From: Halorarum halophilum
Lineage (GTDB): Archaea > Halobacteriota > Halobacteria > Halobacteriales > Haloferacaceae
Length of the DNA: 64,000 nucleotides
NCBI RefSeq assembly: GCF_013401515.1
Contig: NZ_CP058529.1
Span: 2,170,001 to 2,234,000, forward strand
Reading direction: 5' to 3'
Shown: positions 24,213-38,951 of the stretch, piece after piece
Numbering within the stretch: position 1 is the first letter of the stretch
Layout of the letters: every line of letters begins with the position of its first letter
Notes under the pieces: generated by a model
What the model saw: the letters and a program-made list of their open reading frames with translations, nothing else
What the model was told of the DNA's origin: nothing
The model's database searches: none
Translations under genes and position numbers: made by a program

Positions 24213-25391
24213 ATGCCAGGGGATATCTTCGAGCCGAGCGAGTACGAACGGCGGATCGAGCGGACGCGGGAGCGGATGCGCGATCGGGACCTCGACGCCA
24301 TCGTCGTCTCCGACCCGGCGAACATGAACTACCTCGCCGGCTACGACGGCTGGTCGTTCTACGTCCACCAGGCGGTCGTCCTCACGGCCGACGGCGACGA
24401 GCCGGTGTGGGTCGGCCGCGAGATGGACGCGAACGGCGCGCGCGCGACGACCTGGCTCTCCGAGGAGAACATCAGGTCGTACAGCGACGACCACGTCCAC
24501 TCCCCGCACGACCTCCACCCGATGGACTTCCTCGCGGACGTGCTGGCGGACCTCGACGTCGACGGCGGCCGGATCGGGCTGGAGATGGACGCGTACTACT
24601 TCACGGCGAAGTCCTACACACGGCTCGGGTCGAACCTCCCGAACGCCGAGTTCGAGGACACGACCCTGCTCGTGAACTGGGTCCGGGTGAGGAAGTCCAA
24701 GCGGGAACTCGCATACATGCGCGAGGCCGCCCGGATCTCGGAGGAGGCGATGCTCGCCGGCCTGGACGCCATCGAGGCCGGGGTCCCGGAGTACGAGGCC
24801 GCCGCTGCCATCTACGACGCGCTCATCACCGGCACCGACGAGTACGGCGGCGACTACCCGTCGATCGTCCCGCTGATGCCCTCCGGGGACCACACGGGGA
24901 CGCCCCACCTCACGTGGACCGACCGGGAGTTCGAGGACGGCGACCCGGTGATCATCGAACTCTCGGGCTGTCGGCACCGCTACCACTCCCCGCTCGCGCG
25001 GACGACGTTCGTCGGCGACCCACCCTCGGAGATCGAGCACACCGCCGACGTCGTCGTCGAGGGGCTCGAGGCCGCCCTCGACGCCGCGGAACCGGGCGTC
25101 ACCTGCGAGGCCGTCGAGAAGGCGTGGCGCGACACCATCGCCCAGTACGACATCGAGAAGGAGGACCGCATCGGCTACTCGATGGGACTCGGCTACCCGC
25201 CGGACTGGGGCGAGCACACCGCCAGCATCCGGCCGGGCGACGAGACGGTGCTGGCCGAGGACATGACGTTCCACATGATCCCCGGCATCTGGGGCGACGA
25301 CTTCGGCGTCGAGATCAGCGAGACGTTCCACGTCACCGCCGACGGCGCCGAGGCGCTGGCCGACTTCCCCCGCCGGTTGTTCACGGCGTAG
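24213..25391 (+). CDS. doeA: Ectoine hydrolase DoeA/EutD-like (M24 fold)
   Basis: A 392-residue cytoplasmic enzyme of the creatinase/aminopeptidase-P fold. Ectoine hydrolase opens the ectoine ring to N-acetyl-2,4-diaminobutyrate. In metal-dependent M24 peptidases two Asp residues bind metal (a DxG...SDxTR pattern); here these positions read IIELSG (Glu249) and RYHSPLARTTFVG (Pro260), the replacement I remember in Halomonas DoeA. Also shared from memory: NYLAGYDGWSFYVHQ (39-53), WVGREMDANGA (66-76), HPMDFLADVL, GGDYPSIVPL and YPPDWGEHTASIRPGDE (328-344). Its promoter carries the operator shared by the cluster, and neighbours supply later steps. An Xaa-Pro dipeptidase is the alternative, made unlikely by the lost ligands. 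Confidence 0.85.
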   Translation: MPGDIFEPSEYERRIERTRERMRDRDLDAIVVSDPANMNYLAGYDGWSFYVHQAVVLTADGDEPVWVGREMDANGARATTWLSEENIRSYSDDHVHSPHDLHPMDFLADVLADLDVDGGRIGLEMDAYYFTAKSYTRLGSNLPNAEFEDTTLLVNWVRVRKSKRELAYMREAARISEEAMLAGLDAIEAGVPEYEAAAAIYDALITGTDEYGGDYPSIVPLMPSGDHTGTPHLTWTDREFEDGDPVIIELSGCRHRYHSPLARTTFVGDPPSEIEHTADVVVEGLEAALDAAEPGVTCEAVEKAWRDTIAQYDIEKEDRIGYSMGLGYPPDWGEHTASIRPGDETVLAEDMTFHMIPGIWGDDFGVEISETFHVTADGAEALADFPRRLFTA

Positions 25392-25454: not shown

Positions 25455-26684
25455 CTAGACGTCCCCGTTGACGATCGCCGCGACGCGTTCGTACTCGAAC
25501 AGGCGACCGGTCCCCTCCGAGAGGGTCTCGAGGCCGTTCCACTCGCCGAACGTGTCCGGGTAGAACTGCTTCGCGGCCACCTCGGTCTGGAACAGGTTGA
25601 CGATCGGCCCCTGGTACGACGTGCCGCCCCGATAGAGCCGGTCGTTCTGGACCGCGGTCAGCTGCTGTCCGAGTGGGTCCTCGCGCATCCGCTGCATCCG
25701 GCGTTCGAACTCCCCGGTCGAGACGTGGGAGAACCCGTACTGGAAGAGGAGCGCGTCGGGGTCGACCTCGAGGAGCTTCTCGTAGTCCCACTCCCCGTAG
25801 CTCGCGTCGATGTGGTCGTCGAACGCGCCCCGCATCCCGAGGTCGCGGTACTGCTTGTGCCCGTTGCCGTCGTGGACCGGGTAGGCGTAGAACGCCCCGT
25901 TCTCGAAGTCCGAGTTGATCGAGAGGAGTCCGACGGTGGGCCGCTCCTCCGCCGGCGGGAGTTCCGATTTGATCGTCGAGCGCATATCCTCGTGGACCCG
26001 TGCGAGCGCCTCGTACCGCTCCCGTTCGTCGAACACCTGGGCGATCCTCCCGAACGCGTCGTACAGCGAGTAGTAGGCATAGTCGTGCCAGTCCTCGCCG
26101 CGGCGACGGATCGAGTTCCCGATGATCGGCCCGACGTTCGTCCGGATGTCCTCGTAGTCGGACTCCTCCCAGCCGTCCGCGAGGCGGCTGATGAAGTTCG
26201 GGTCCATCAGGTGGACGTCGCAGTCCATCTCGTAGAACGCCTCCTTGTCGAGGCCGCCGCCGGCGAAGAGCTGCGGGACGTCGTCGAAGGAGACGTCGAC
26301 GCCGGGCAGGTGATCGTAGAACGCCGTCGGCCAGTTCTCCGTGAAGACGAGTCCGCTGATCCCGTCGAGTTGGCCGAGCGCGACGGCCATGTCGCCGTAG
26401 GTGCTGAAGTACGCCATCCACGTTTCGGGCGTCTCTTCGAAGGAAACCTCGCCCATCGGCTCCATCGTGACGGAGAAGGGGTCACGCTCGTCGGCGGCGG
26501 AATCGGCGGACGACTGTTCCCCCGCGCTCGTCGACGGATCCCCCGTTCCCGTCCCCGTCGGTTCGGACTCCGACCCGGTATCACCCGTACAGCCGGCGAG
26601 CACCGTTCCGCCGAGCAGCGCGCCGCCGTACTTCACGTACTCGCGCCGCGTGGGTGCCTCGCGTTCCTGAATGTCCCGCGCCAT
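25455..26684 (-). CDS. Iron-siderophore/cobalamin-type ABC substrate-binding lipoprotein
   Basis: A 409-residue exported protein: twin Arg (RR at 13-14), hydrophobic stretch and lipobox LAGC (Cys32), followed by a Ser/Thr/Glu linker. The mature part is a class III periplasmic-binding fold (FhuD/BtuF type: VSFEETPETWMAYFSTYGDMAVALG, ASYGEWDYEKLLEVDPDALLF, YRGGTSYQGPIVNLFQTEVAAKQFYP). No permease or ATPase is nearby. A perfect TTTAGG/CCTAAA palindrome sits directly before the start codon, consistent with iron control by a DtxR-type repressor. It interrupts the ectoine cluster and may be unrelated to it. Confidence 0.8.
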   Translation of the reverse strand: MARDIQEREAPTRREYVKYGGALLGGTVLAGCTGDTGSESEPTGTGTGDPSTSAGEQSSADSAADERDPFSVTMEPMGEVSFEETPETWMAYFSTYGDMAVALGQLDGISGLVFTENWPTAFYDHLPGVDVSFDDVPQLFAGGGLDKEAFYEMDCDVHLMDPNFISRLADGWEESDYEDIRTNVGPIIGNSIRRRGEDWHDYAYYSLYDAFGRIAQVFDERERYEALARVHEDMRSTIKSELPPAEERPTVGLLSINSDFENGAFYAYPVHDGNGHKQYRDLGMRGAFDDHIDASYGEWDYEKLLEVDPDALLFQYGFSHVSTGEFERRMQRMREDPLGQQLTAVQNDRLYRGGTSYQGPIVNLFQTEVAAKQFYPDTFGEWNGLETLSEGTGRLFEYERVAAIVNGDV

Positions 26685-26762: not shown

Positions 26763-27752
26763 TCAGTCGGCGCCGGGGTCGAGGACGACGTTGCGGAGCT
26801 CCCCGTCCCCGTCCAGCGCGGCCACGTTGTCGGCGACGATGTCCGCGAGACGGTCCCAGTGCTTCGGCGTGTGACCGCCGGTGTGTGGCGTGATGAGGCA
26901 GTTCTCGAGGTCCCACAGCGGGTGGTCGTTGGGGAGCGGCTCCGGCTCCGTGACGTCGAGCGCCGCGCCGCGGATCTTGTTCGACTGGAGCGCGGCCACG
27001 AGCGCGTCGGTGTCGACGATTCCGCCGCGGGCGGCGTTGACGAGGACGGCGTGCGGCGGCAGCGTCGCGAACTCGGCCTCCCCGACGAGCCCCCGGGTGA
27101 GGTCGTTGAGCGGGCAGGCGAGCACGACGTAGTCGCTGCGGGCGAACGCGTCGTGGATGGCGTCCTCGTCGAAGCCGACCACCTCGTCGGTCGGACCCCC
27201 CTTCTCGGGCGTGTAGCGGACGCCGATCGTCTCCACATCGAACCCCGCGAGCCGCCGGACGACCGCCTGCCCGATGGAGCCGAGACCGACGACCGTGACG
27301 GTGCTGTCGGTGAACTCGTGGGACTGGAAGTGGCGCCACTCCCCGTTCGCCTTCCGGCGCCACCCTTCGTGGAGCCGGCGGGCGAACACGAGCATGTTGC
27401 CGATGGACTGCTCCGCGATGCCCGGTGCGTGGATGCCGCCGGCGTTCGTGACGACGACGCCGCGCTCGGCCAGCGCGTCCGTCGGGAGGTGGTCGGTCCC
27501 GGCGAACGTGCAGGCGAACAGCTCCAGCCGGTCGGCCCGGGAGAGCCCCTCCTCGTCGATCCCGATCCCGGTGACGACCCGCGCGTTCCGGACGAGTTCC
27601 CGCTCGGCGCGGGGCGTCCGAGCGAGTTCGACCGTCCGCTCCGGCAGTCGCTCGCGGAGCTCCTCGGCGTACGACTCCATCGACAGGCCCTCCGTCCCCT
27701 CGCGGAGGACGAGGACGTCCGGCCCTTCGGCCGTGGTTGACTGGTCGGGCAT
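26763..27752 (-). CDS. D-2-hydroxyacid dehydrogenase (NAD-dependent)
   Basis: A 329-residue member of the D-isomer-specific 2-hydroxyacid dehydrogenase family, which interconverts 2-oxo and 2-hydroxy acids. The nucleotide motif GLGSIG is at 156-161; catalytic residues are Arg242 (NAARGGIVD), Glu271 (TEPEPLP) and His290 (TPHTGGHT). It is divergent from the first M20 gene across a 123-base gap that holds operator B, so it belongs to the regulated cluster. A plausible role is reduction of a 2-oxo acid produced by the lyase or transaminases nearby; the substrate cannot be read from the sequence. Confidence 0.85.
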   Translation of the reverse strand: MPDQSTTAEGPDVLVLREGTEGLSMESYAEELRERLPERTVELARTPRAERELVRNARVVTGIGIDEEGLSRADRLELFACTFAGTDHLPTDALAERGVVVTNAGGIHAPGIAEQSIGNMLVFARRLHEGWRRKANGEWRHFQSHEFTDSTVTVVGLGSIGQAVVRRLAGFDVETIGVRYTPEKGGPTDEVVGFDEDAIHDAFARSDYVVLACPLNDLTRGLVGEAEFATLPPHAVLVNAARGGIVDTDALVAALQSNKIRGAALDVTEPEPLPNDHPLWDLENCLITPHTGGHTPKHWDRLADIVADNVAALDGDGELRNVVLDPGAD

Positions 27753-27813: not shown

Positions 27814-27842
27814 GTGTATTCCGCATACACGGGAACTGTGTA
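27814..27842. promoter_or_regulatory. Cluster operator B: three half-sites 12 bases apart in a divergent promoter
   Basis: GTGTA (27814-27818), TACAC (27826-27830) and GTGTA (27838-27842) are each separated by seven bases. The right pair gives a perfect TACAC-N7-GTGTA palindrome directly upstream of the TATA-like CAATTAAG (27843-27850) of the M20 gene. On the other strand AAAAGGATAAGT (27813-27802) is the likely TATA box of the dehydrogenase gene, so one site can serve both. Confidence 0.7.
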
Positions 27843-27875
27843 CAATTAAGGTCGTGGGGCGTGTCATGGGCTCCC

Positions 27876-29156
27876 ATGACGGCACGACTCCGCGACCGAC
27901 TCACCCCGCTGCGCCGCGACCTGCACCGCCACCCGGAACCGGCGTGGCGCGAGTTCTACACGACCCACCGGCTCGTCGAGGAGCTCCGCGCGATCGACCC
28001 CGACGGGATCGCCGTCGGGCATGAAGCGTACGATCCGGCGGACCGGATGGCGGTCCCCGACGACGAGGAGTTCGGCCCGTGGGTGGAGCGGGCGCGCGAG
28101 CGCGGCGCCGACGCCGACCTCCTCGACCGGATGGCGGGCGGCAACACCGGCGCCGTCGCGTGGCTCGACCGCGGCGAGGGGCCAACGGTCGGGCTCCGCG
28201 TCGACATCGACGGCCTGTTCATCGAGGAGTCGACGGACGACGAACACCACCCCGTCGCCGAGGGGTTCCGCTCGGAGATCGAGGGCACGATGCACGCCTG
28301 CGGCCACGACGCGCACATGACGTGGGGGCTCGCCGTCCTCGAGGCGATCCGCGACAGCGACTTCTCGGGCACGTTCCGCGTGTTCTTCCAACCGGCGGAG
28401 GAGGAGAGCGGCGGCGGCAACCCGATGGCCGAGAGCGGGTTCGCCGAGGACCTCGACTACCTCCTCGCGGTCCACGTCGGCCTCGACCACCCGACGGGGC
28501 GGGTCGTCGCTGGCATCGAGAAGCCGCTGGCGATGGCCCACTTCGACGTGACCTTCGAGGGGACCTCCGCCCACGCCGGGAAGGCGCCCAACGAGGGTGA
28601 CAACGCGATGCAGGCGCTCGGCACCGCCATCACGAACGTCTACGGCATTCCGCGTCACGCGGACGGGATGACCCGCGTCAACGTCGGGACGGCCGAGGCC
28701 GGCACCGCGAGCAACGTCGTCGCGGAACGGGCCCGCGTGGCGGCGGAGGCGCGCGGCGAGACGACCGAGCTCATGGAGACGATGAAGCGGGAGTTCCGCC
28801 GACGGGTCCGGGCTGCGGCCGAGATGCACGGCTGCGAGGTGGACGTCGACGTCGTCAGCGAGTCGCCGCGCGCCGACAGCGACCCGGAACTGGTCGACCT
28901 CGTCGCCGACGTCGCCCGCGACGTTCGGGGCGTCGAGGAGGTCGTTCCCACGGCCGACTTCGGCGCGAGCGAGGACGCCACGTTCCTGATGCGTCGAGTC
29001 CAGGAGAACGGCGGACTGGCGTCGTACCTGATCGTGGGCACGGACCACCCGACGAGCCACCACACGCCGACGTTCGACGTCGACGAGCGCAGCCTCGAGA
29101 TCGGCGTCGACGTGCTCACCGACGCCGTCCTAGAACTCTCCGAACGGGGGCCATGA
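27876..29156 (+). CDS. M20 family amidohydrolase (candidate N-acetyl-diaminobutyrate deacetylase, copy 1)
   Basis: A 426-residue zinc hydrolase of the M20D/AbgA-like branch. Metal ligands are in HACGHDAHM (His140, Cys142, His144) and FQPAEEES (Glu175, Glu176); the dimerisation domain contains SAHAGKAPNEGDNAMQAL and the C-terminus HHTPTFDVDE. In ectoine breakdown the product of DoeA must be deacetylated; bacterial DoeB is an AstE-type enzyme, but M20-type deacetylases (sometimes called DoeB2) also exist, and I infer that role here. ATG 27876 fits a TATA box 26-33 bases upstream; a GTG five codons earlier is possible. It overlaps the next gene by four bases. Confidence 0.75.
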   Translation: MTARLRDRLTPLRRDLHRHPEPAWREFYTTHRLVEELRAIDPDGIAVGHEAYDPADRMAVPDDEEFGPWVERARERGADADLLDRMAGGNTGAVAWLDRGEGPTVGLRVDIDGLFIEESTDDEHHPVAEGFRSEIEGTMHACGHDAHMTWGLAVLEAIRDSDFSGTFRVFFQPAEEESGGGNPMAESGFAEDLDYLLAVHVGLDHPTGRVVAGIEKPLAMAHFDVTFEGTSAHAGKAPNEGDNAMQALGTAITNVYGIPRHADGMTRVNVGTAEAGTASNVVAERARVAAEARGETTELMETMKREFRRRVRAAAEMHGCEVDVDVVSESPRADSDPELVDLVADVARDVRGVEEVVPTADFGASEDATFLMRRVQENGGLASYLIVGTDHPTSHHTPTFDVDERSLEIGVDVLTDAVLELSERGP

Positions 29157-30532
29157 GCGAGGAACCGTCCGTCGGCGGGGACGCCGGAAGTGACCATACC
29201 GACCGGGAACCCGGGGACGGCGTGGGCATCACGGACGGGGCCGGAGACAGCGCGGACGCCTCGGAGCGGGACGTCGACCGGACGGCCGAGGACGTCGTCT
29301 CCCTCGCCGACGTCCGGGCGGCCCGCGACCGCCTCGCGGACGTCGTCCACCGGACGCCGCTGGACACCTCGCGGACCCTCGCCCGGCTGAGCGGCGCCGC
29401 GTCCGTCGGGCTGAAGCTGGAGAACACGCAGCGGACGGGGTCGTTCAAGATCCGCGGCGCGTACAACCGGATGGCGGAGCTGTCGGCCGACGAGCGGGCC
29501 GAGGGCGTGATCGCGGCGAGCGCCGGCAACCACGCTCAGGGCGTCGCGCTCGCCGGTCGTCTGCTCGACGTCGACGCCACGATCGTCGTCCCGGAGGTGA
29601 CGCCCGCGGCGAAGATCGAGGCGACCCGCGGCTACGGCGCCGAGGTCGTCGTCGAGGGCGACATCTACGAGCGGTCCTACGAGCGTGCGCTCGAACTCGC
29701 TGAGGAGACGGGCCGGACGTTCGTCCACCCGTTCGACGACGAGGCGGTGATCGCCGGCCAGGGGACCGTCGGGCTCGAACTCGCCGAACAGTACCCCGAC
29801 CTCGACGCGGTGCTCGTCCCCATCGGCGGCGGCGGGCTCATCTCGGGGGTGGCGACGGCGATGGCGACGCTCCCGGACGACGTCCGCGTCGTCGGCGTCC
29901 AGCCCGAGGGAGCGCTCCACGCGAAACCGTCGCTGGCGGAGGGCCGCATCCACGAGCTGTCGGACGTCGACACCGTCGCCGAGGGCATCGCCGACACGCG
30001 ACTGCTCGGGGCGACGTTCGCGGTCGTCCGCGAGCGCGTCGACGAGGTGGTCGGCGTCACCGACCGGGAGCTGGGGGTCGCGGTGACGCTGCTGGCCGAG
30101 CGAGCCAAGACCGTCGCCGAAAGCGCCGGCGCCGCCGGGGTCGCGGCGCTGCTGTCCGACGAACTCGACGTGGGAGGCGAGCACGTCGGGGTCGTCGTCT
30201 CCGGCGGGAACGTGAACCTCACCGAGCACGCCGAACTCGCCCGGACCGGGCTCGGGGAACTCGGTCGGTACGCGGAGGCCCGGCTGGCGGTCGACGGCTG
30301 GCCGACCGCCGTCGCCGACGTGGTCGAGACGGTCGAATCCGAGGGCGCCGAACTCGACGCGCTCGAACGCGCCCGCCGTGGTGCCGACGACGAGCCGAAC
30401 CGCGTGCCCGTGACAGTCGGCATCGAGGGGAGCGGCCGCGAGCACCTCGACGGCGTGCTCGCGGCGCTCGACGAACTGGACGACGTCGAGGTCACGGGCG
30501 CCGGCGGTCGCGTCGGTTCCGGCGGTTCGTAG
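29153..30532 (+). CDS. Threonine ammonia-lyase-like PLP enzyme (EutB-like)
   Basis: A 459-residue fold-type II PLP enzyme. The PLP lysine is Lys99 (GSFKIRGAYN), the phosphate loop is near 224 (PIGGGGLISG), and a C-terminal segment (VPVTVGIEGSGREHLDGVLAALDEL) looks like an ACT-type regulatory domain. The first 45 or so residues are an acidic extension. Threonine ammonia-lyase makes 2-oxobutyrate, but the bacterial ectoine clusters contain a similar protein, EutB. The four-base overlap with the M20 gene and the shared operator B favour a role in the cluster. Biosynthetic IlvA is the alternative. Confidence 0.75.
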   Translation: MSEEPSVGGDAGSDHTDREPGDGVGITDGAGDSADASERDVDRTAEDVVSLADVRAARDRLADVVHRTPLDTSRTLARLSGAASVGLKLENTQRTGSFKIRGAYNRMAELSADERAEGVIAASAGNHAQGVALAGRLLDVDATIVVPEVTPAAKIEATRGYGAEVVVEGDIYERSYERALELAEETGRTFVHPFDDEAVIAGQGTVGLELAEQYPDLDAVLVPIGGGGLISGVATAMATLPDDVRVVGVQPEGALHAKPSLAEGRIHELSDVDTVAEGIADTRLLGATFAVVRERVDEVVGVTDRELGVAVTLLAERAKTVAESAGAAGVAALLSDELDVGGEHVGVVVSGGNVNLTEHAELARTGLGELGRYAEARLAVDGWPTAVADVVETVESEGAELDALERARRGADDEPNRVPVTVGIEGSGREHLDGVLAALDELDDVEVTGAGGRVGSGGS

Positions 30533-30559: not shown

Positions 30560-31921
30560 TTAGACCGCTTTCGGCGTGGTTTCGACGTCCCCGATCGCCT
30601 CGCAGAAGATGCCGACGCCGAGTTCGATCTCCCGTTCGGTCGAGTCGAGGGGCGGGAGCAGCCGGATGGTCTTCCGCCCGCAGCCGAGGGTCAGCAGGCC
30701 GCGCCGCAGCGCCGCCTCGACGACTACGTCCCTGCGGTCGGCCGTGTCGAACTCGACGGCGAGCATCAGGCCCTTGCCGCGCACGTCGACGACGCCGTCC
30801 GGGGCGTCGTCGCGGAGCAGCTCCTTCGCCTGCCGACCGCGCGTGGTGGCGTTCTCGAGCAGGTCGTACTCCTCGATCGCCTCCAGGGTGAGCGCGCCCA
30901 TCGCCGACGCGAGCAGGTCGCCGCCGCCGAACGTGGAGCCGAGGCGGTTCTTCTCGGCCGGGAACAGCTCCTCCCGCGAGATGGTCGCGCCGACGCGCAG
31001 TGCCTTCGCCGCCGAGATGACGTCCGGCTCGATGTCGTAGTGGTCCGAGGCCCACAGCTTCCCGGTGCGACCGATGCCGGACTGGATCTCGTCGACGACG
31101 AGCGGGATGTCGTACTCGTCGCTGACCGCGCCAACCTCGGCCGCGAACGACTCGCTCGGGAAGCGGTAGCCGCCGACGCCCTGGATCGGTTCGAGGACGA
31201 TGAACGCCACCTCCTCGGGGTCGACGTGGCCGCCCTCGGGCGCGAGCGCGCCCCGGAGCTGAGAGGTCCCGCCGGCGAAGAACCCGCAGTCGCAGGCCTC
31301 GGGGTCGCAGGTCCGGTCCGAGCAGAACGGGACGGTCCTGATCCCCGCGATCTCCGGGTAGTGGCGGGTGTAGACGTCCTTCGAGCGCGTAAGCGACAGC
31401 GCGCCGAGCGTCCGACCGTGGAACGAGCCGTCGAAGGTGTAGCCGTACTTCGCGGCCGGCCGGTTGTCGTGGGCGACCTTCATCGCGTTCTCGATCGCCT
31501 CGGCGCCGGAGTTCGAGAGGAAGACGGTGTCCAGCCCGTAGTGGTCGGACACCTCAGTCAGCTTCTCCATCAGGTGGCTCGACCCGGGGACGGCCGACTC
31601 CTCGGGCGTCGGGCCGGCGCCGAAGTACATGTCCTGGCCGGCGATCTTCATCGGCTCGACGAGGTCGAACTCGGCCAGCGGGTCGAGGACCTTCTCGTTG
31701 TTGTAGCCGAGCGGCGCCGCGCCGATGTGGCAGGTGAAATCCAGCAGGACGTTGCCGTCGACGTCGGTGACGAACGGGCCGTCCGCCTCGGCGGTCACGT
31801 CCCAGACGAACTCGTGGGAGTACTCGCTCGGCGCGGCGTGTTCCCCGTGGAACTCGACCCACGCCTCGGCGTTCGGGCCGGGGAGGGCGTCCGTGTCGGG
31901 TTCCGCTGTCCCCCTATCCAT
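30560..31921 (-). CDS. Class III aminotransferase (cluster copy 1)
   Basis: A 453-residue PLP aminotransferase of the GABA/ornithine/diaminobutyrate group. Motifs: FLSNSGAEAIENAMKVA (134-150), FDGSFHGRTLGALSLT, VVDEIQSGIGRTG and PLP lysine Lys306 (SAAKALRVG). A four-Cys insertion (Cys200, 205, 210, 212) could hold a metal. ATG 31921 is chosen because its T forms part of operator C and a TATA-like box lies 25-32 bases upstream; an earlier frame start at 31963 lies inside the promoter. In the model it would remove the second amino group of diaminobutyrate or act on a downstream amine. GABA transaminase is an alternative. Confidence 0.82.
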   Translation of the reverse strand: MDRGTAEPDTDALPGPNAEAWVEFHGEHAAPSEYSHEFVWDVTAEADGPFVTDVDGNVLLDFTCHIGAAPLGYNNEKVLDPLAEFDLVEPMKIAGQDMYFGAGPTPEESAVPGSSHLMEKLTEVSDHYGLDTVFLSNSGAEAIENAMKVAHDNRPAAKYGYTFDGSFHGRTLGALSLTRSKDVYTRHYPEIAGIRTVPFCSDRTCDPEACDCGFFAGGTSQLRGALAPEGGHVDPEEVAFIVLEPIQGVGGYRFPSESFAAEVGAVSDEYDIPLVVDEIQSGIGRTGKLWASDHYDIEPDVISAAKALRVGATISREELFPAEKNRLGSTFGGGDLLASAMGALTLEAIEEYDLLENATTRGRQAKELLRDDAPDGVVDVRGKGLMLAVEFDTADRRDVVVEAALRRGLLTLGCGRKTIRLLPPLDSTEREIELGVGIFCEAIGDVETTPKAV

Positions 31922-31937
31922 ACACAGTTTATGTGTA
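31921..31937. promoter_or_regulatory. Cluster operator C (perfect TACAC-N7-GTGTA) at the start of the class III aminotransferase gene
   Basis: TACAC (31921-31925), seven bases, GTGTA (31933-31937); the arms extend to six bases (TACACA/TGTGTA). Its first base is the T of the minus-strand start codon, and the likely TATA box (CATTAAAAG read on plus, 31945-31953) lies just beyond it. The site therefore covers the transcription start point, a repressing position. Confidence 0.75.
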
Positions 31938-32088
31938 CTACGTACATTAAAAGTTGTTATCAACCGGCAGTCGGGGCGGTCGCCGGGCGGTCGGAGCGGG
32001 GAACGTTCTCCGAACGGGAGGAGCGGTCAGTGCGTCGGACCCGACGAGGGAGGAGGGGAGGGTCGGTCGGGACCGGCCCGAATCGGCG

Positions 32089-33750
32089 TCAGTCGTCGTC
32101 GGTCGTCTCGGTCGGCTCGGGGGGCTCCGTCCCGCCCGGGGAGGTATCCGGCCGCGAGCCGAAGATCCAGGCGTTCTCCCGGAGCAGCACCCTGCCGTAC
32201 TCGGAGCTGAACTCCCTGACGAGCCCGAGCAGGGCGAACAGGCAGACGAACGCGAACGGGCCACCGGTGATGATGGCGGCCGACTGGAGCGCCGAGGTGC
32301 CGCCGAGCGTCATGAGGATGGCGGCGAACATCCCCAGCACGACGCCCCAGAACACCCGGTTGATGCTCGAGGGGCGCGCCTTGCCGCCGGTCGTCATCAT
32401 CGACACCGCGAGCGTCGAGGAGTCCGCGGAGGTGATGAAGAACGTCGTCACCAGCAGCATGAACGCCAGCATGAACACCGTCCCGAACGGGAACGCCTCG
32501 AAGAGGATGAACCCGGACGCCTCCGCACCGGGACCGCCGTCGGCCAACACCGCGCTGAAGTCGGCGACGCCGGTGTGCTGGTAGAAGACGGCCGTCCCGC
32601 CGACGAACGTGAACCACGGGATCGTCGCCGCCGACGTGGCGCCGATGCCGGTGAACGCGACCTCGCGGACGGTCCGGCCCTTCGAGATGCGGGCGATGAA
32701 CAGGCCCGCGAACGGCGACCACGAGAGCGCCCACGCCCAGTAGAAGACGGTCCACGCGTTCGCCCAGCCCGTCCCGCCCTCGACGCCCGCACCGGTGAAC
32801 AGGCTCATCGAGACGAAGTCGGTGATCATGCCGCCGAACGCCTGCGTCCCCAGCAGGACGAGGAAGACGGTCGGCCCCACGACGAACGTCGCCGTCATGA
32901 GGATCACGAACATGACCATGTTGAAGTTCGAGAGCCGGCGGATGCCCCGGTTCACCCCGAGCACCATCGAGACGGTGAACAGCAACGTCATCGTCGTGAC
33001 GACGAGGATGATGCCGGTGGTCCCCAGGTCGATGCCCCACTGGTAGTTCAGGCCGCTGATGAACTGGCTCCCGATGAACCCCAGCGACGTCGCCACGCCG
33101 CCGATGGTCGCGAAGACGGCGACGATGTCGACGACCTTCGCGACGGGGCCGTCGAGGTTGTCCCGCCCGATGAGCGGCGTGAGCGCCGAGGAGACGCGGA
33201 GGGGGACGTTCTCGTAGTTGTAGGTGAAGTAGCCGATGGCGATCCCCATGATGGTGAACACGGCCAGTTGGGGGAGCGCCCAGTGGAAGATGGTCTGCTG
33301 GACGGCGATGACCATCGCCTCGCTCGTCCCTGCCTGGACGTCGAACAGCGGCGAGGGGTTGTCGTAGTAGAACAGCGCTTCAGTCGGTCCCCAGAAGACG
33401 ACGCCGGCCGCGAAGCCGGCCGAGTACAGCATGGCGAAGAAGGAGAAGAAGCTGTACTCGGGCGGGTCGTCGCCGAGCGTGATGTTCCCCCACGGGCCGA
33501 CGATGAGGAACAGGAGGAACAGCACGACGAGGAAGACGATGAGCAGCAGCGCCCAGTTGAGGTACGTGAGCATCGCGTCGTTGGCGACGCTGATCCACTC
33601 CACCACGAGTTCGGGCGCGAGGAAGTACAGCAGGATGAGCCCGACCGTCAGCCCCGCGCCGAAGACGAAGACGATGGGATCGAGCTCCTCGCGGAACTGC
33701 TCCACCGCACCCCGGTCCCCACCGGTGCGCGGCTCGCCGCCGTCGCTCAT
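32089..33750 (-). CDS. BCCT family osmolyte transporter
   Basis: A 553-residue membrane transporter of the betaine/choline/carnitine/ectoine family, with about 12 membrane helices between residues 25 and 510. The family signature region FYWAWALSWSPFAGLFIARI with the following SKGRTVRE is near residue 335, and GFAAGVVFWGPTEALFYY corresponds to the Gly-rich unwound helix TM3. Charged tails are on both sides. Some BCCT proteins import ectoine (EctT, BetP and others), so uptake of the cluster substrate is likely; glycine betaine is the alternative. It has an apparent leader of about 110 bases carrying operator E upstream of its TATA box and palindrome H at the presumed start site. Confidence 0.88.
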   Translation of the reverse strand: MSDGGEPRTGGDRGAVEQFREELDPIVFVFGAGLTVGLILLYFLAPELVVEWISVANDAMLTYLNWALLLIVFLVVLFLLFLIVGPWGNITLGDDPPEYSFFSFFAMLYSAGFAAGVVFWGPTEALFYYDNPSPLFDVQAGTSEAMVIAVQQTIFHWALPQLAVFTIMGIAIGYFTYNYENVPLRVSSALTPLIGRDNLDGPVAKVVDIVAVFATIGGVATSLGFIGSQFISGLNYQWGIDLGTTGIILVVTTMTLLFTVSMVLGVNRGIRRLSNFNMVMFVILMTATFVVGPTVFLVLLGTQAFGGMITDFVSMSLFTGAGVEGGTGWANAWTVFYWAWALSWSPFAGLFIARISKGRTVREVAFTGIGATSAATIPWFTFVGGTAVFYQHTGVADFSAVLADGGPGAEASGFILFEAFPFGTVFMLAFMLLVTTFFITSADSSTLAVSMMTTGGKARPSSINRVFWGVVLGMFAAILMTLGGTSALQSAAIITGGPFAFVCLFALLGLVREFSSEYGRVLLRENAWIFGSRPDTSPGGTEPPEPTETTDDD

Positions 33751-33909: not shown

Positions 33910-33926
33910 TATACAGAAAGCGTATA
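33910..33926. promoter_or_regulatory. Cluster operator E (perfect TATAC-N7-GTATA) upstream of the BCCT gene
   Basis: TATAC (33910-33914) and GTATA (33922-33926) with seven bases between. The site is about 20 bases upstream of the BCCT TATA-like box and 160 bases before its start codon. Confidence 0.65.
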
Positions 33927-34165: not shown

Positions 34166-34813
34166 TCAGTTGGTGAGCTCGTCGAGCTTCGCCTCGCGGG
34201 CCTCGGCGCTCTCGTCCACGTTCCGGAGGAACTCGTCGACGCTCTCCTTGATCTCCTCGCGGGCCGCGGCGGGGGAGAACTCCTCGGACATGGTGAGCAG
34301 CCGGACGAACGCCCGGAGTTCCGTGTCCGTGATCTGTGCGAACTCGCCGTTCTCCAGCTTCTCGACCACCTCGTCGACGTCGATCTGGCCGACCGGGTCG
34401 ACGTTGAACTCGACGTTGACCATGCGGTAGTCGGAGCCGGCGAGCTGCTGTTCGGCCTTGCCGACGCCCTCGGAGAGCATGTCCTTGAACGGCGTGTAGT
34501 AGCCCATCGTGCCGAGGTGGAGGAACGCCAGCATGTCGGTGATGCCCTGCGTGTACGCCTCCCGGTCCTCGTCGTCGGGATCGAACACGGTGTTGCGGTC
34601 GCGCTCCTCGAGGTACTCGAAGAGGATGCTGAAATCGAGGATCGCGTTCCGGACCCGGCGCCGGATGCGGTTCCGCTTCTGCTTCTTCGAGTGCTCGGTG
34701 TAGTCGGTCTTCCGTCCGAGCAGGAAGTCGCGGTCGGAGGGCGTGAGGATCCCGCGGGGCCGGTCGGCGTCGGCCGCCGTCTCCAGCGAGTCGGGGACGT
34801 CGTCGGTCGTCAT
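34166..34813 (-). CDS. Haloarchaeal protein of unknown function, candidate cluster regulator
   Basis: A 215-residue protein. Residues about 20-60 form a conserved, unusually basic block for this proteome (RGILTPSDRDFLLG, then KKQKRNRIRRRVRNAILDF), followed by LFEYLEERDRNTVFD. I remember this block from many uncharacterised haloarchaeal proteins but cannot name the family, and no classical helix-turn-helix is obvious. Operator D overlaps its start codon exactly as operator C does at the aminotransferase, which suggests that it controls its own synthesis. It lies between transporter and catabolic genes, and no other regulator is present. A regulatory role is inference. Start 34813 has a TATA-like box (GATTAACG on plus, 34838-34845). 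Confidence 0.6.
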   Translation of the reverse strand: MTTDDVPDSLETAADADRPRGILTPSDRDFLLGRKTDYTEHSKKQKRNRIRRRVRNAILDFSILFEYLEERDRNTVFDPDDEDREAYTQGITDMLAFLHLGTMGYYTPFKDMLSEGVGKAEQQLAGSDYRMVNVEFNVDPVGQIDVDEVVEKLENGEFAQITDTELRAFVRLLTMSEEFSPAAAREEIKESVDEFLRNVDESAEAREAKLDELTN

Positions 34814-34829
34814 ACACGGTTTACGTGTA
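34813..34829. promoter_or_regulatory. Cluster operator D (perfect TACAC-N7-GTGTA) at the start of the candidate regulator gene
   Basis: TACAC (34813-34817), seven bases, GTGTA (34825-34829), with six-base arms TACACG/CGTGTA. The spacer GGTTTAC resembles that of operator C. As there, the first base belongs to the start codon and the TATA-like box follows directly, so binding should block initiation. Confidence 0.75.
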
Positions 34830-35047
34830 CTGGCGGGATTAACGCTTGTGGTCGGGGAAACCGAGCGGCCGTCGGGAAGGGGGAGAAGACGGCGCTAACC
34901 GCCGTCTCCGCGCGTTTCGCTCCCCTGAATCGATCGGCGTTCCGACCTAGACGGCCGTCGAATCCGGCCCGGCGTACACAGTTTTCGCTATGGACACTAC
35001 TTCCCGACGGCTACGTGCGTGCTCGACGAACAGGGGATTCCGAGCCG

Positions 35048-36337
35048 CTACGCTCCGGGTCTGCGGCGGCCGGTCTCGACGACCGCGTCGGTGAGCACGT
35101 CGACGCCGATGCCGAGGCACCGCTCGTCCACGTCGAACGTCGGCGTGTGGTGGTTCGTCGGGTGGTCCGTCCCGACGATGACGTAGGAAGCGAGGCCGCT
35201 GTTCCCCTGGACGTGCTCCATCAGGAACGTGGCGTCCTCGCTCGCGCCGAACTCGACCGTCGAAACGACCTCCTCGACGGCGTCGTGGTTCCTCGCGACG
35301 TGGCCGATCAGGTCGCGGAGCCGGGGGTCGCTGTCGACGCGTGGGGATTCGCTGATGACCCTGGGCGTGACGTCGCAGTCGTGCATCTCGGCGGCGGAGT
35401 AGAGGACCCGCTCGAGTTCGGTCCGCGCGTACTCCATCAGCGCCATCGTCTCGCCCCGCACCTCGCCGTGGAGCGTGATCTCCTCGGCGATCACGTTGCT
35501 CGCGATCCCCCCCTCGATCCGGCCGAGGTTCACCCGCGTCATCCCGTCGGCGTGCCGGGGGATCGCGTAGGCGTTCTGGATCGCGGTGGCCACCGCCTGC
35601 ATCGCGTTCGCGCCCTCGTTGGGCGCCTTGCCGGCGTGCGCGCTCGCACCCTCGAACGTCGCGGTGAGGTGGGCCATCGCCAGCGGCTTCTCCACCCCGG
35701 CGACGATGGTCCCCGTGGGGGTGTCGAGGCCGACGTGGAACCCGAGCAGGTAGTCGACGTCGTCGACGTGGCCGCTCTCGGTCATCGGCTTCCCGCCCCC
35801 CGAGATCTCCTCGGCGGGCTGGAAGAAGACGCGGAACGTCCCCGAGAAGTCGCTCTCCTTCACCGCCTCGATCGTGCCGAGCGCGATCGCGAGGTGGGCG
35901 TCGTGGCCGCAGGCGTGCATGTAGCCGTCGTGCTCGGAGACGAACCCCTCGTCGGCCGGGCGGTGTCCCGGTTCGTCGGACTCCTGGAGGGAGATGGCGT
36001 CGAGGTCGACGCGGAGCCCGACCGTCGGCCCCTCGCCCCGTTCCAGGGTGGCGACGACGCCGGTGTGGCCCGCGGCGGTCAGTTCGAGGACGTCCTCCCG
36101 TGCGCCGGCCGCCCGCGCGCGCTCGTGCCAGAACGCCAGTTCTGACTCGTCGGGGACCGCCATCCGGTGATCCGTCGAGAGCGCCTCCCGGCCGACGGCG
36201 ATTCGGTCGACCCCGAGCCGTTCGAGCTCCTCGACGACGCGGCTCGTCGTCCGGAACTCGCACCACCCGGGCTCGGGATACCGGTGGAACTCCCGCCGGA
36301 GTTGCGGCAGGCGGCTCCGAATATCGTGAGAAAGCAT
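35048..36337 (-). CDS. M20 family amidohydrolase (candidate N-acetyl-diaminobutyrate deacetylase, copy 2)
   Basis: A 429-residue paralogue of the M20 gene at 27876, alike over its whole length. Metal-site motif HACGHDAHL (His141, Cys143, His145), FQPAEEIS, SAHAGKAPNEGANAMQAV and HHTPTFDVDE are conserved. Start 36337 is supported by CTTAAG (36363-36368) 26 bases upstream and by palindrome G in between. Two copies in one cluster may mean different acyl isomers (N-alpha and N-gamma acetyl-diaminobutyrate, or the hydroxy form), or simply duplication. A general aminoacylase is the alternative. Confidence 0.78.
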   Translation of the reverse strand: MLSHDIRSRLPQLRREFHRYPEPGWCEFRTTSRVVEELERLGVDRIAVGREALSTDHRMAVPDESELAFWHERARAAGAREDVLELTAAGHTGVVATLERGEGPTVGLRVDLDAISLQESDEPGHRPADEGFVSEHDGYMHACGHDAHLAIALGTIEAVKESDFSGTFRVFFQPAEEISGGGKPMTESGHVDDVDYLLGFHVGLDTPTGTIVAGVEKPLAMAHLTATFEGASAHAGKAPNEGANAMQAVATAIQNAYAIPRHADGMTRVNLGRIEGGIASNVIAEEITLHGEVRGETMALMEYARTELERVLYSAAEMHDCDVTPRVISESPRVDSDPRLRDLIGHVARNHDAVEEVVSTVEFGASEDATFLMEHVQGNSGLASYVIVGTDHPTNHHTPTFDVDERCLGIGVDVLTDAVVETGRRRPGA

Positions 36338-36343
36338 ACCACG

Positions 36344-36355
36344 GTGATATGTCAC
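36344..36355. promoter_or_regulatory. Palindrome G (GTGATATGTCAC) between TATA box and start of the second M20 gene
   Basis: Perfect GTGA/TCAC arms around four bases, seven bases upstream of the minus-strand ATG (36337) and downstream of the CTTAAG box at 36363-36368. Read on the minus strand it is nearly the same as palindrome H. Confidence 0.45.
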
Positions 36356-36458: not shown

Positions 36459-36842
36459 CTACCCGAGGTGGGCGACCGCGTCCATCTCGACGTCGACGTC
36501 CTCGGGGAGTCGCGACACCTCGACGCAGACCCGGGCGGGCGGATCCTCGCCGAATCGGGCGGCGTAGGCCTCGTTGACGCGGTCGTAGTCGTCGAGGTCG
36601 GTCAGGTAGACGGTCACCTTCACGACGTCGTCCAGCCCGTCGCCGCCAGCCGCCTCGACGACCGCGGCGACGTTGTCGAGGACCTGCTCCGTCCGGTCAC
36701 CGACGTCGCCCTCGACGGGCTCGTCCGTCGCCGGGTCGACCGGGCCGTAGCCGGAGACGTACAGCGTGTCGCCGGCGCGAACGCCCTGCGAGTAGGGGTT
36801 GTCGGTGCAGGGTGCGCCGTCCGTGACGACCGGGTCGGTCAT
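36459..36842 (-). CDS. ridA: RidA family enamine/imine deaminase
   Basis: A 127-residue protein of the YjgF/YER057c/UK114 family, which hydrolyses reactive imines and enamines released by PLP enzymes. Family features: [59 protein letters not shown] and the substrate-binding Arg in [13 protein letters not shown]. It starts inside the last codons of the diaminobutyrate-type transaminase (four-base overlap), so the two are co-translated. This fits protection against by-products of the transaminases and the lyase in this cluster. Confidence 0.9.
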
Positions 36843-38221
36843 CGTGCCGTCGCGGCCTCCGCGGTGACCTGTTCGATCGCGTCCGCGACGACGTCCATCG
36901 CCGTCTCGGCGAGCTCCTCGGTCAGCACGAGCGGCGGGAGGAGCCTGAGGACGTTGCCGTGGCGGCCGGCCGTCCACACGAGGACGCCGCGCTCGAAGCA
37001 GTACTGCTGGATGGCGTCGACGACCTCGCCGTTCGGGTCGCCGTTCTCGTCGCGGAACTCGGCGCCGACGAACAGCCCCCGGCCGCGCACCTCCGCCAGG
37101 CGGTCCGTTCCCTCGCCGGCCTCTCGGAGCCGGTCGCGGATGGACGAGCCCAGTTCGCGCGCGTGCGCCAGGAGGTCGTGGTCCTGGATGTACTCGATGG
37201 CGCGGGTACCCGCCCGCATGCCGACGACGTGGCCCCGGTACGTGCCGGCGTGATCTCCCGAGCCCCACGTGTCGAGGTCCTCGTGGTACATCGTCGCCGA
37301 CAGGGGGAACCCGACGCCGCCGAGCGCCTTCGCGGACGTCATGGCGTCGGGCGTGACGCCGGCCCAGTCGCTGGCCCACCACTCGCCCGTCCGGCCCAGG
37401 CCGCTCTGGATCTCGTCGAACACGAGCGGCACGTCGTTGTCGTCGGCGATGTCGCGGAGCCCCCGGAGGAACCCCTCCGGCGGCGTGATCACGCCGCCCT
37501 CGCCCTGGATCGGCTCGACGAAGATGCCAGCCGGGTTCGCGAGCCCGCCGTACGGGTCCTCGATGATCGCCTGCACCTCCTCGAGCGCGTGGTCGACGGA
37601 CTCCTCGGGGGTCTTCCCCTGCCGGAGGGGATTCGGGTACGGCGCGTGGACGACGTCGCCGAGCAGCGGCGTGTACGCCTCCTTGAACCCCGTGTTCGAG
37701 GTGAGGCTCATCGCGCCGGTCGTCGCGCCGTGGTAGGCGCCGCGGAAGGCGACGAGGCCGTCGCCGCCCGTGTTGTACTTCGCGAGCTTGATCGACGCCT
37801 CGATCGCGTCGCTCCCGGTCGGGCCGCCGAACACGACCCGGTTCTGCCCCTGCAACCCGGCCGGTGCGATCTCGTCCAGCTTCTCGATCAGTTCGAGGCG
37901 GGCCTCGGTGGGGAAGTCGACGGTGTGGACGAGCTTGTCCGCCTGCTCGTGGACCGCCTCCAGGACGTACGGGTTGGCGTGGCCGACGTTGAGCACGCCG
38001 ATGCCGGCGAACAGGTCGATGTACGTGTTGCCGTCGGCGTCGCGGACGGTCGCCCCCTTCCCCTCCTCGAACGCGATGGGGATGTCCTCGGGGTAGGCGA
38101 CCGCGCTGCTGTCGATCTCGCGCTGTCTCGCCAGCAGGTCCCGGGAGTTCGGCCCCGGCACGTCGCCGACGTCCGGTGCGTCCTCGAAGTGCAGCTCCTC
38201 GATCGGCGGTCCGGCTGTCAT
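36839..38221 (-). CDS. Diaminobutyrate-2-oxoglutarate transaminase-like aminotransferase (DoeD role)
   Basis: A 460-residue class III PLP enzyme. The segment [18 protein letters not shown] (131-148) is the signature I associate with EctB/Dat/DoeD diaminobutyrate transaminases (FxGPTGxDAxEAxxK). Others: [28 protein letters not shown] and PLP lysine Lys298 ([10 protein letters not shown]). In ectoine catabolism it would turn diaminobutyrate into aspartate semialdehyde. Start 38221 is set by a TATA box at 38243-38249; ATG 38233 is an alternative. RidA follows with a four-base overlap. A biosynthetic EctB is less likely, as no ectA or ectC is present. Confidence 0.82.
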
Positions 38222-38951
38222 GTGTGGTGGCATGAAGAACGAGGATAAATAATTTGTCCACGAATACCATACAGGTCGTACACAATAGTCGTTTTCGAGT
38301 TGGCGAGGGGGGTGCGGCGTGGACATCCGTCACTCGTCGAGTGCCGCGCCCCGTCGAGTGGGCGGTCGGCATCGAGACGGTCGGGAACGAGACTGTCGGC
38401 ACTCGGGGGAGTTCCTCGAAAGTGGAACGAGACCGGCCAGCATGTTCACCTGGCGGTCATCGTCCACCCAAGCTAAGGCGATCACCGGTGGATGCCGGGC
38501 CGCCATCGACTGCTAGCCTGTACCACGGAATAACTCTTGTGTCGGCCGGGAGTGCGACGGGACGACTGCGTCCGCCGCACCTGGTCCGGATTCGACACGT
38601 CTGTCGTGAGCGTCGACTGGGAGGAGGTGAGGGTGTCGCGGTCACTCTTCTGGACGAGACGCGTGCGTTACGGTCGGAGGCGAAAAACGCCGGGCCGTGT
38701 CGAGCCGCCGAACCGGCGTTCGGGTCTCGATCGACGCCGATGTCTGTGGGTTCTCGGAGGGCTGCGCGATCAGCCCTACGCGGAGGTATTAGCACAACTA
38801 GATAAATCCTCTGACGGACGATCGAACGGCCGACACCCGTTCGGCGGCGGTTCCGTCGCTTCGACCCCCGGCCGATAGTCGCTCGAGGAGACGTCGTCGT
38901 GAACGGACGTCGGCCCGAACAGGTAACTAACCACGGAGCTACGTCCGTCGC
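38222..38951. other. Intergenic region right of the catabolic cluster
   Basis: About 730 bases. The left end holds the promoter of the transaminase gene (TATA-like GGATAAATAATTT on plus, 38243-38255) and a weak relative of the cluster operator (TACAC at 38279-38283 with a degenerate partner at 38267-38271). The rest contains only frames with no protein-like composition; I see no gene or RNA in it. Confidence 0.45.

Follow-up and report, generated by a model that had tools for sequence, protein, structure and literature searches.

Gene organization of the locus

The window, which is the whole 64-kb stretch of DNA that was analyzed, carried a putative ectoine/hydroxyectoine degradation cluster. 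A DoeA/EutD-like ectoine hydrolase of the M24 family (24213..25391, plus strand) matched TIGR02993 best (E 2e-142), with a score of 475 bits that lay below the equivalog cut-off of 613. The other genes encoded a D-2-hydroxyacid dehydrogenase (HADH; 26763..27752, minus strand), an M20 amidohydrolase with a presumptive DoeB-like role (M20a; 27861..29156, plus strand), and a threonine ammonia-lyase family enzyme (29153..30532, plus strand). The best NCBIfam match of this last enzyme was threonine ammonia-lyase, with the EutB model under its cut-off, and it may serve an EutB-like role. The minus strand also carried class III aminotransferase AT1 (30560..31963; the real start is probably near 31919), a BCCT family transporter (32089..33750), a second M20 amidohydrolase (M20b; 35048..36355), a RidA-type enamine/imine deaminase (36459..36836), and class III aminotransferase AT2 (36839..38326; the real start is probably downstream of 38326). 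Inside the cluster, positions 25455-26684 encoded a lipoprotein-like product that by eye resembled an iron/siderophore ABC substrate-binding protein and had no NCBIfam match. In 2026, Halobacteria were described as having putative clusters for ectoine catabolism, which include aminopeptidase, aminotransferase, and BCCT genes and were termed provisional (PMC13188858). With DoeA under its equivalog cut-off and the archaeal clusters themselves provisional, the degradation of ectoine by this pathway is a putative assignment.

Among the cluster genes tested, a single one was without an enzymatic or transport reading, as the sequence-only reading had stated. This gene, here called REG, occupied positions 34166-34813 on the minus strand, began with ATG, and encoded 215 residues in the ORF reading of the window; the gene and its product with a basic block proved real. 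The basic block KKQKRNRIRRRVRN (residues 43-56; 34646..34687, minus strand) was invariant at almost every position among 57 orthologues and formed the first half of a predicted long helix. Residues 43-48 varied among paralogue subfamilies, and R49, I50, R51, and R53 were constant. REG was annotated as a 'hypothetical protein', and Pfam and NCBIfam held no model for its family, which agreed with the earlier description of the family as uncharacterized. PHROGs contained no family matching REG, a PDB profile search returned chance-level matches only, and no second family member was found in its own genome. At E <= 1 in Pfam and NCBIfam, REG matched neither an AsnC-type HTH or RAM domain nor a GntR-type winged helix or aminotransferase-like PLP domain. 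At the sequence level there was no above-cut-off match to winged-helix, HTH, or RHH proteins (TrmB and other Pfam/NCBIfam DNA-binding families), and the fold-level models were weak. The identities rnpA, Cas1, and integrase were rejected for REG, with HMM scores all far under cut-off.

Structure prediction returned a poor AF2 model of full-length REG (57 orthologues, pLDDT 48). The model of the N-terminal domain (residues 17-134) reached a pLDDT of 67 overall and of 72-90 across most of its first 50 residues, and consisted of a short helix, a loop, and then a 36-residue helix, of which the basic block was the first half. When the REG models were compared with PDB and viral models by Foldseek, no significant match was found, and deepening of the alignment through viral contigs gave one distant relative only. 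The DNA-binding fold that had been looked for did not emerge: a basic helix was predicted, in a domain model of low-to-medium confidence, and no solved structure matched it.

An inverted repeat recurs in the promoters of the cluster

A perfect inverted repeat, TACACG-gttta-CGTGTA (6-N5-6; 34813..34829), lay across the REG start codon, with one end on the A of the ATG, which bore out the palindrome reported there. A TATA-like GTTAAT (34838..34843, minus strand), assigned by its position, covered roughly -30 to -25 relative to the A of the ATG. The palindrome by itself was unremarkable, since the window contained 58 perfect 6-N5-6 inverted repeats; we rejected a lone palindrome as evidence and took recurrence as what counts. 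The consensus TAYAC-N7-GTRTA, to which the site at the REG start was a perfect match, occurred four times in the window (27826, 31921, 33910, and 34813), where order-1 Markov sequences would lead one to expect 0.005 copies. The whole 4.28-Mb genome had seven copies. Four were within 7 kb of the cluster, all in promoters, and the remaining three lay within coding sequence. Besides the one at REG, the putative operator dyads were located over the true AT1 ATG (31921..31937; the ATG is on the 31917-31919 side), between the divergent D-2-hydroxyacid dehydrogenase and M20 amidohydrolase genes (27826..27842), and upstream of the BCCT gene (TATACAGAAAGCGTATA, 33910..33926), where the match to the consensus was again perfect and the dyad was upstream of a TATA-like element. 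A weak site at AT2 (38279) was left out of the dyad count.

REG and the dyad are linked to the cluster across Halobacteria

We scanned 391 genomes of the class Halobacteria for orthologues at a threshold of E <= 1e-60. A REG orthologue was present in 134 of the 391, and every one of these 134 also had DoeA; no genome carried REG without DoeA, and 10 of the 144 DoeA-bearing genomes were devoid of REG. In 78 loci fetched by similarity, a REG orthologue (68-87% identity) stood amid the cluster genes in nearly all, in several gene orders. No other recurrent recognizable regulator was seen in the cluster when ORFs of at least 70 codons were judged by eye in these 78 loci. Beyond the known set, any further gene recurred in at most 21 of 78 loci, and the recurrent extra genes were by eye a proline dehydrogenase, a DUF502-like membrane protein, and a glutamate dehydrogenase. 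The most diverged orthologue (L109, 53% identity) kept the basic block, with one dyad at AT1 and another at its own start. In Haladaptatus pallidirubidus, one chromosome apparently carried the cluster region twice (L096 and L097), with gene order and identities the same in both. A metagenome-assembled orthologue (L051:10001-10222) ended in a stop after 73 codons, perhaps through an assembly error. In five loci of several Halorubrum and Halobellus (L079-L082 and L084), REG was accompanied by AT2 and M20b only, with no consensus dyad nearby; the rest of the cluster lay elsewhere in these genomes, with DoeA on other contigs in such genomes.

Across the 1.55 Mb of locus DNA, TACAC-N7-GTGTA was matched exactly 54 times, compared with at most two for each half-site permutation and 0-6 for other spacings. 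Dyads matching at least 9 of 10 positions were found at 63 of 66 AT1 promoters, 32 of 50 M20a promoters (where the dyad is common to the divergent dehydrogenase promoter), and 30 of 69 BCCT promoters. AT2, M20b, RidA, and EutB were rejected as targets, with such sites at only 5/58, 7/56, 0/45, and 0/42, respectively. The AT1 promoter consisted of a TATA-like element (TTTTAATG) followed by the dyad, which began at -16 and ended on the A of the ATG.

The AT1 dyad also followed the presence of REG. Scored over 10 positions, it reached 8-10 in all 66 clusters with REG, and 3, 3, 6, 6, 6, 9, and 9 in seven clusters without it; the dyad was therefore lost in five of the seven, and two (L141 and L143) kept a 9/10 dyad. 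One contig-edge case with DoeA and without REG (L139) kept the M20a dyad, and REG may simply be unassembled there. Exact TAYACRNNNNNTGTGTATG occurred in 109 of 134 genomes with both genes, in none of the 10 with DoeA only, and in 11 of 247 with neither (Fisher p 2e-7 for both genes versus DoeA only, a value not corrected for phylogeny). Within one genus, the AT1 promoter read ttaataacgccaTACACgatttctGTGTATG in a cluster with REG (L222) and ttaataaccataTTCGCgatttctGCCTATG in a cluster without it (L142), with L145 alike; compared with L222, both dyad arms were lost in L142 and L145, whereas the TATA-like element and spacer were retained.

Autoregulation of REG, which the sequence-only reading had taken as apparent, stood in part. 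In the promoter count, 19 of 79 REG starts had a dyad of at least 9/10. A consensus dyad at the gene's own start was present in the window and in about 17 of 77 orthologues (15 perfect and two at 9/10). Since this dyad was degenerate in most Natrialbaceae and Halorubrum orthologues, autoregulation is not general, and in those species REG would control the cluster without self-control or with a weaker form of it.

Paralogue subfamilies carry start-codon dyads of the same geometry

Members of the wider family were detected in 258 of the 391 genomes, about two thirds, so that the family is as widespread as had been proposed. Relatives of about 40% identity had the N-terminal domain (RGILTPADRxFL...RIRxRV) in common with REG, but not the C-terminal part. 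We scanned the regions near family start codons for dyads in 795-901 position/width combinations. For REG-type starts, the strongest signal came from a dyad of width 17 whose end was the A of the ATG. Subfamily S2 (27 sequences) had TAATC-N7-GATTA at the REG-type position over its own start, with 4.93 of 5 pairs formed, among sequences that are mutually related. S3 (five sequences) peaked at the same start-codon position, and S4 (20 sequences) at the same centre, with outer TA/TA invariant. The dyad centre was thus roughly 8 bases ahead of the A in the gene's own ATG in the window, S2, S3, and S4, and the comparison of neighborhoods for matching palindromes, suggested earlier as a check, turned up start-codon dyads of one geometry. 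S5 and the others, a small remaining set, had no start-codon dyad in the scan. In each of eight 14-kb S2 loci, the S2 start was the sole place with a perfect TAATC-N7-GATTA. None of 61 annotated control gene starts had four or more dyad pairs, and REG's own dyad was absent from the paralogue genes in loci L110-L125. Covariation at the inner positions of S4 was unsupported, as 18487 of 20000 shuffles reached the observed value. These patterns are most simply read as binding of family members to their own start regions, with the outer TA in common and the inner bases specific to each subfamily.

Several family members were observed in other settings. In Natrialbaceae (L117 and L119-L125), an S2 paralogue was oriented divergently to the gene for an MMPL-family membrane protein, with a leucyl-tRNA-synthetase-like gene close by, and the sole dyad nearby was at its own start. 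Plasmids of 14-18 kb from Haladaptatus salinisoli (L151 and L152) encoded distant members annotated as hypothetical proteins. On a viral contig (L126:5989-6312), beside HNH-like and virion-type genes, a short protein comprised little beyond the family N-terminal domain, which suggests that this domain is a separate module.

Proposed mechanism and alternatives

The proposal of REG as a candidate regulator gained strong comparative support from features that can be read directly in the sequence, namely linkage to the cluster, dyads in its promoters, dyad loss in most REG-less clusters, and the shared geometry of the paralogue start-codon dyads. From these patterns we infer DNA binding, dimerization, the sign of regulation, and a ligand. 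We put a probability of roughly 0.7 on REG being a dedicated transcription regulator of the putative ectoine/hydroxyectoine catabolic cluster that would bind TAYAC-N7-GTRTA as a dimer. Points that weigh against this reading are the poor fold models, the degenerate own-start dyad of most Natrialbaceae and Halorubrum orthologues, the two 9/10 AT1 dyads in clusters without REG, the M20a dyad of L139, the five REG loci with no consensus dyad nearby, the lack of covariation in S4, and an association of REG with the dyad that is not corrected for phylogeny. DNA would be bound through the N-terminal domain (roughly residues 17-80), which contains the long basic helix and with which the subfamilies would read different inner half-site bases in an unchanged geometry. 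In the AT1 and REG promoters, which are apparently leaderless, the dyad takes up the space that follows the TATA element, from -16 up to the A of the ATG; because of this placement, binding is expected to block RNA polymerase and cause repression. At M20a/HADH, the TATA region of the divergent promoter adjoins or overlaps the dyad, and polymerase would likewise be hindered. REG in this genome is thus probably a repressor of ectoine catabolism. Repression might be lifted, through the variable C-terminal part, by an intermediate of the pathway; alpha-ADABA or DABA would be conceivable, in analogy to bacterial EnuR.

The sign of regulation need not be the same at every site, since the dyad upstream of the TATA element at BCCT makes activation possible there as well. 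Archaeal activator sites are usually upstream of the TATA element, and REG might be an activator or dual regulator that recruits basal factors at BCCT and merely tunes the other promoters. We consider this unlikely, for the best conserved dyad, that of AT1, and the dyad of REG itself both lie downstream of the TATA element and reach the start codon, where a bound protein would hinder polymerase. It is quite improbable, in our estimate, that the dyad is read by a protein encoded elsewhere, such as an Lrp/AsnC or TrmB protein, and that REG is a co-regulator or serves the cluster in some other way. Such a separate reader would fit the lack of a recognizable DNA-binding domain in REG, the near-complete AT1 dyads of the two REG-less clusters, and the absence of dyads near REG in the five Halorubrum and Halobellus loci. 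However, the dyad tracks REG across genera and is lost with it inside one genus, no other recognizable regulator gene recurs in the cluster, and the different dyads that REG paralogues carry in the same frame over their own genes are left unexplained by a separate reader. Finally, although the A of the ATG falls within the dyad at AT1 and at the family starts, a core promoter or translation feature with no operator function is very hard to reconcile with the 61 dyad-free control starts, the M20a and BCCT dyads apart from a start codon, the mere seven sites in 4.28 Mb, and the way in which the dyad's presence follows that of REG.

With REG as the reader of the dyad, its relatives likely form a new family of haloarchaeal transcription factors. 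We give an even chance to a broader and joint proposal, that this large family without a profile model is a new transcription factor class with a DNA-binding domain unlike known ones, that it reads a common frame of about TANNC-N7-GNNTA over its members' own start codons, and that from one subfamily to the next the inner bases alone change, in step with a short variable stretch beside the conserved RIRxR helix. An unnamed family that occurs in roughly two thirds of the searched haloarchaeal genomes would become a set of testable transcription factors with predicted operators, and the paired subfamily proteins and half-sites would offer a recognition code testable by simple swaps.

Comparison with known systems

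Haloarchaeal winged-helix regulators such as those of the TrmB family control metabolism and use inverted-repeat operators near the TATA element or the start. REG resembles them in its proposed part in haloarchaeal metabolic regulation, but has no sequence match to them. In bacteria, ectoine catabolism is repressed by EnuR, a MocR/GabR-type protein that responds to alpha-ADABA, is released from DNA by it or by hydroxy-alpha-ADABA, and combines an N-terminal DNA reading head with an aminotransferase-like PLP domain (PMC8739950). As with REG, the EnuR gene is tied to an ectoine catabolic cluster; repression is likewise predicted for REG, and an ectoine-derived inducer is plausible. Unlike EnuR, REG has 215 residues and no PLP domain, and it matches neither EnuR domain, so that EnuR is a functional analogue of REG and no relative. 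The AsnC/Lrp-type regulator of bacterial ectoine clusters (asnC), as given in the accessible part of PMC13188858, is similarly small and encoded in an ectoine cluster, but is unlike REG in sequence: neither Pfam nor NCBIfam gave REG an AsnC/Lrp match at E <= 1. The halobacterial clusters in the same part of that paper are like the one described here in having EutD/DoeA with aminopeptidase, aminotransferase, and BCCT genes. For these archaeal clusters the accessible text named no regulator or operator, whereas REG and its dyads are proposed here; REG is a candidate to fill the place of the regulator that these newly proposed clusters of archaeal ectoine catabolism have lacked.
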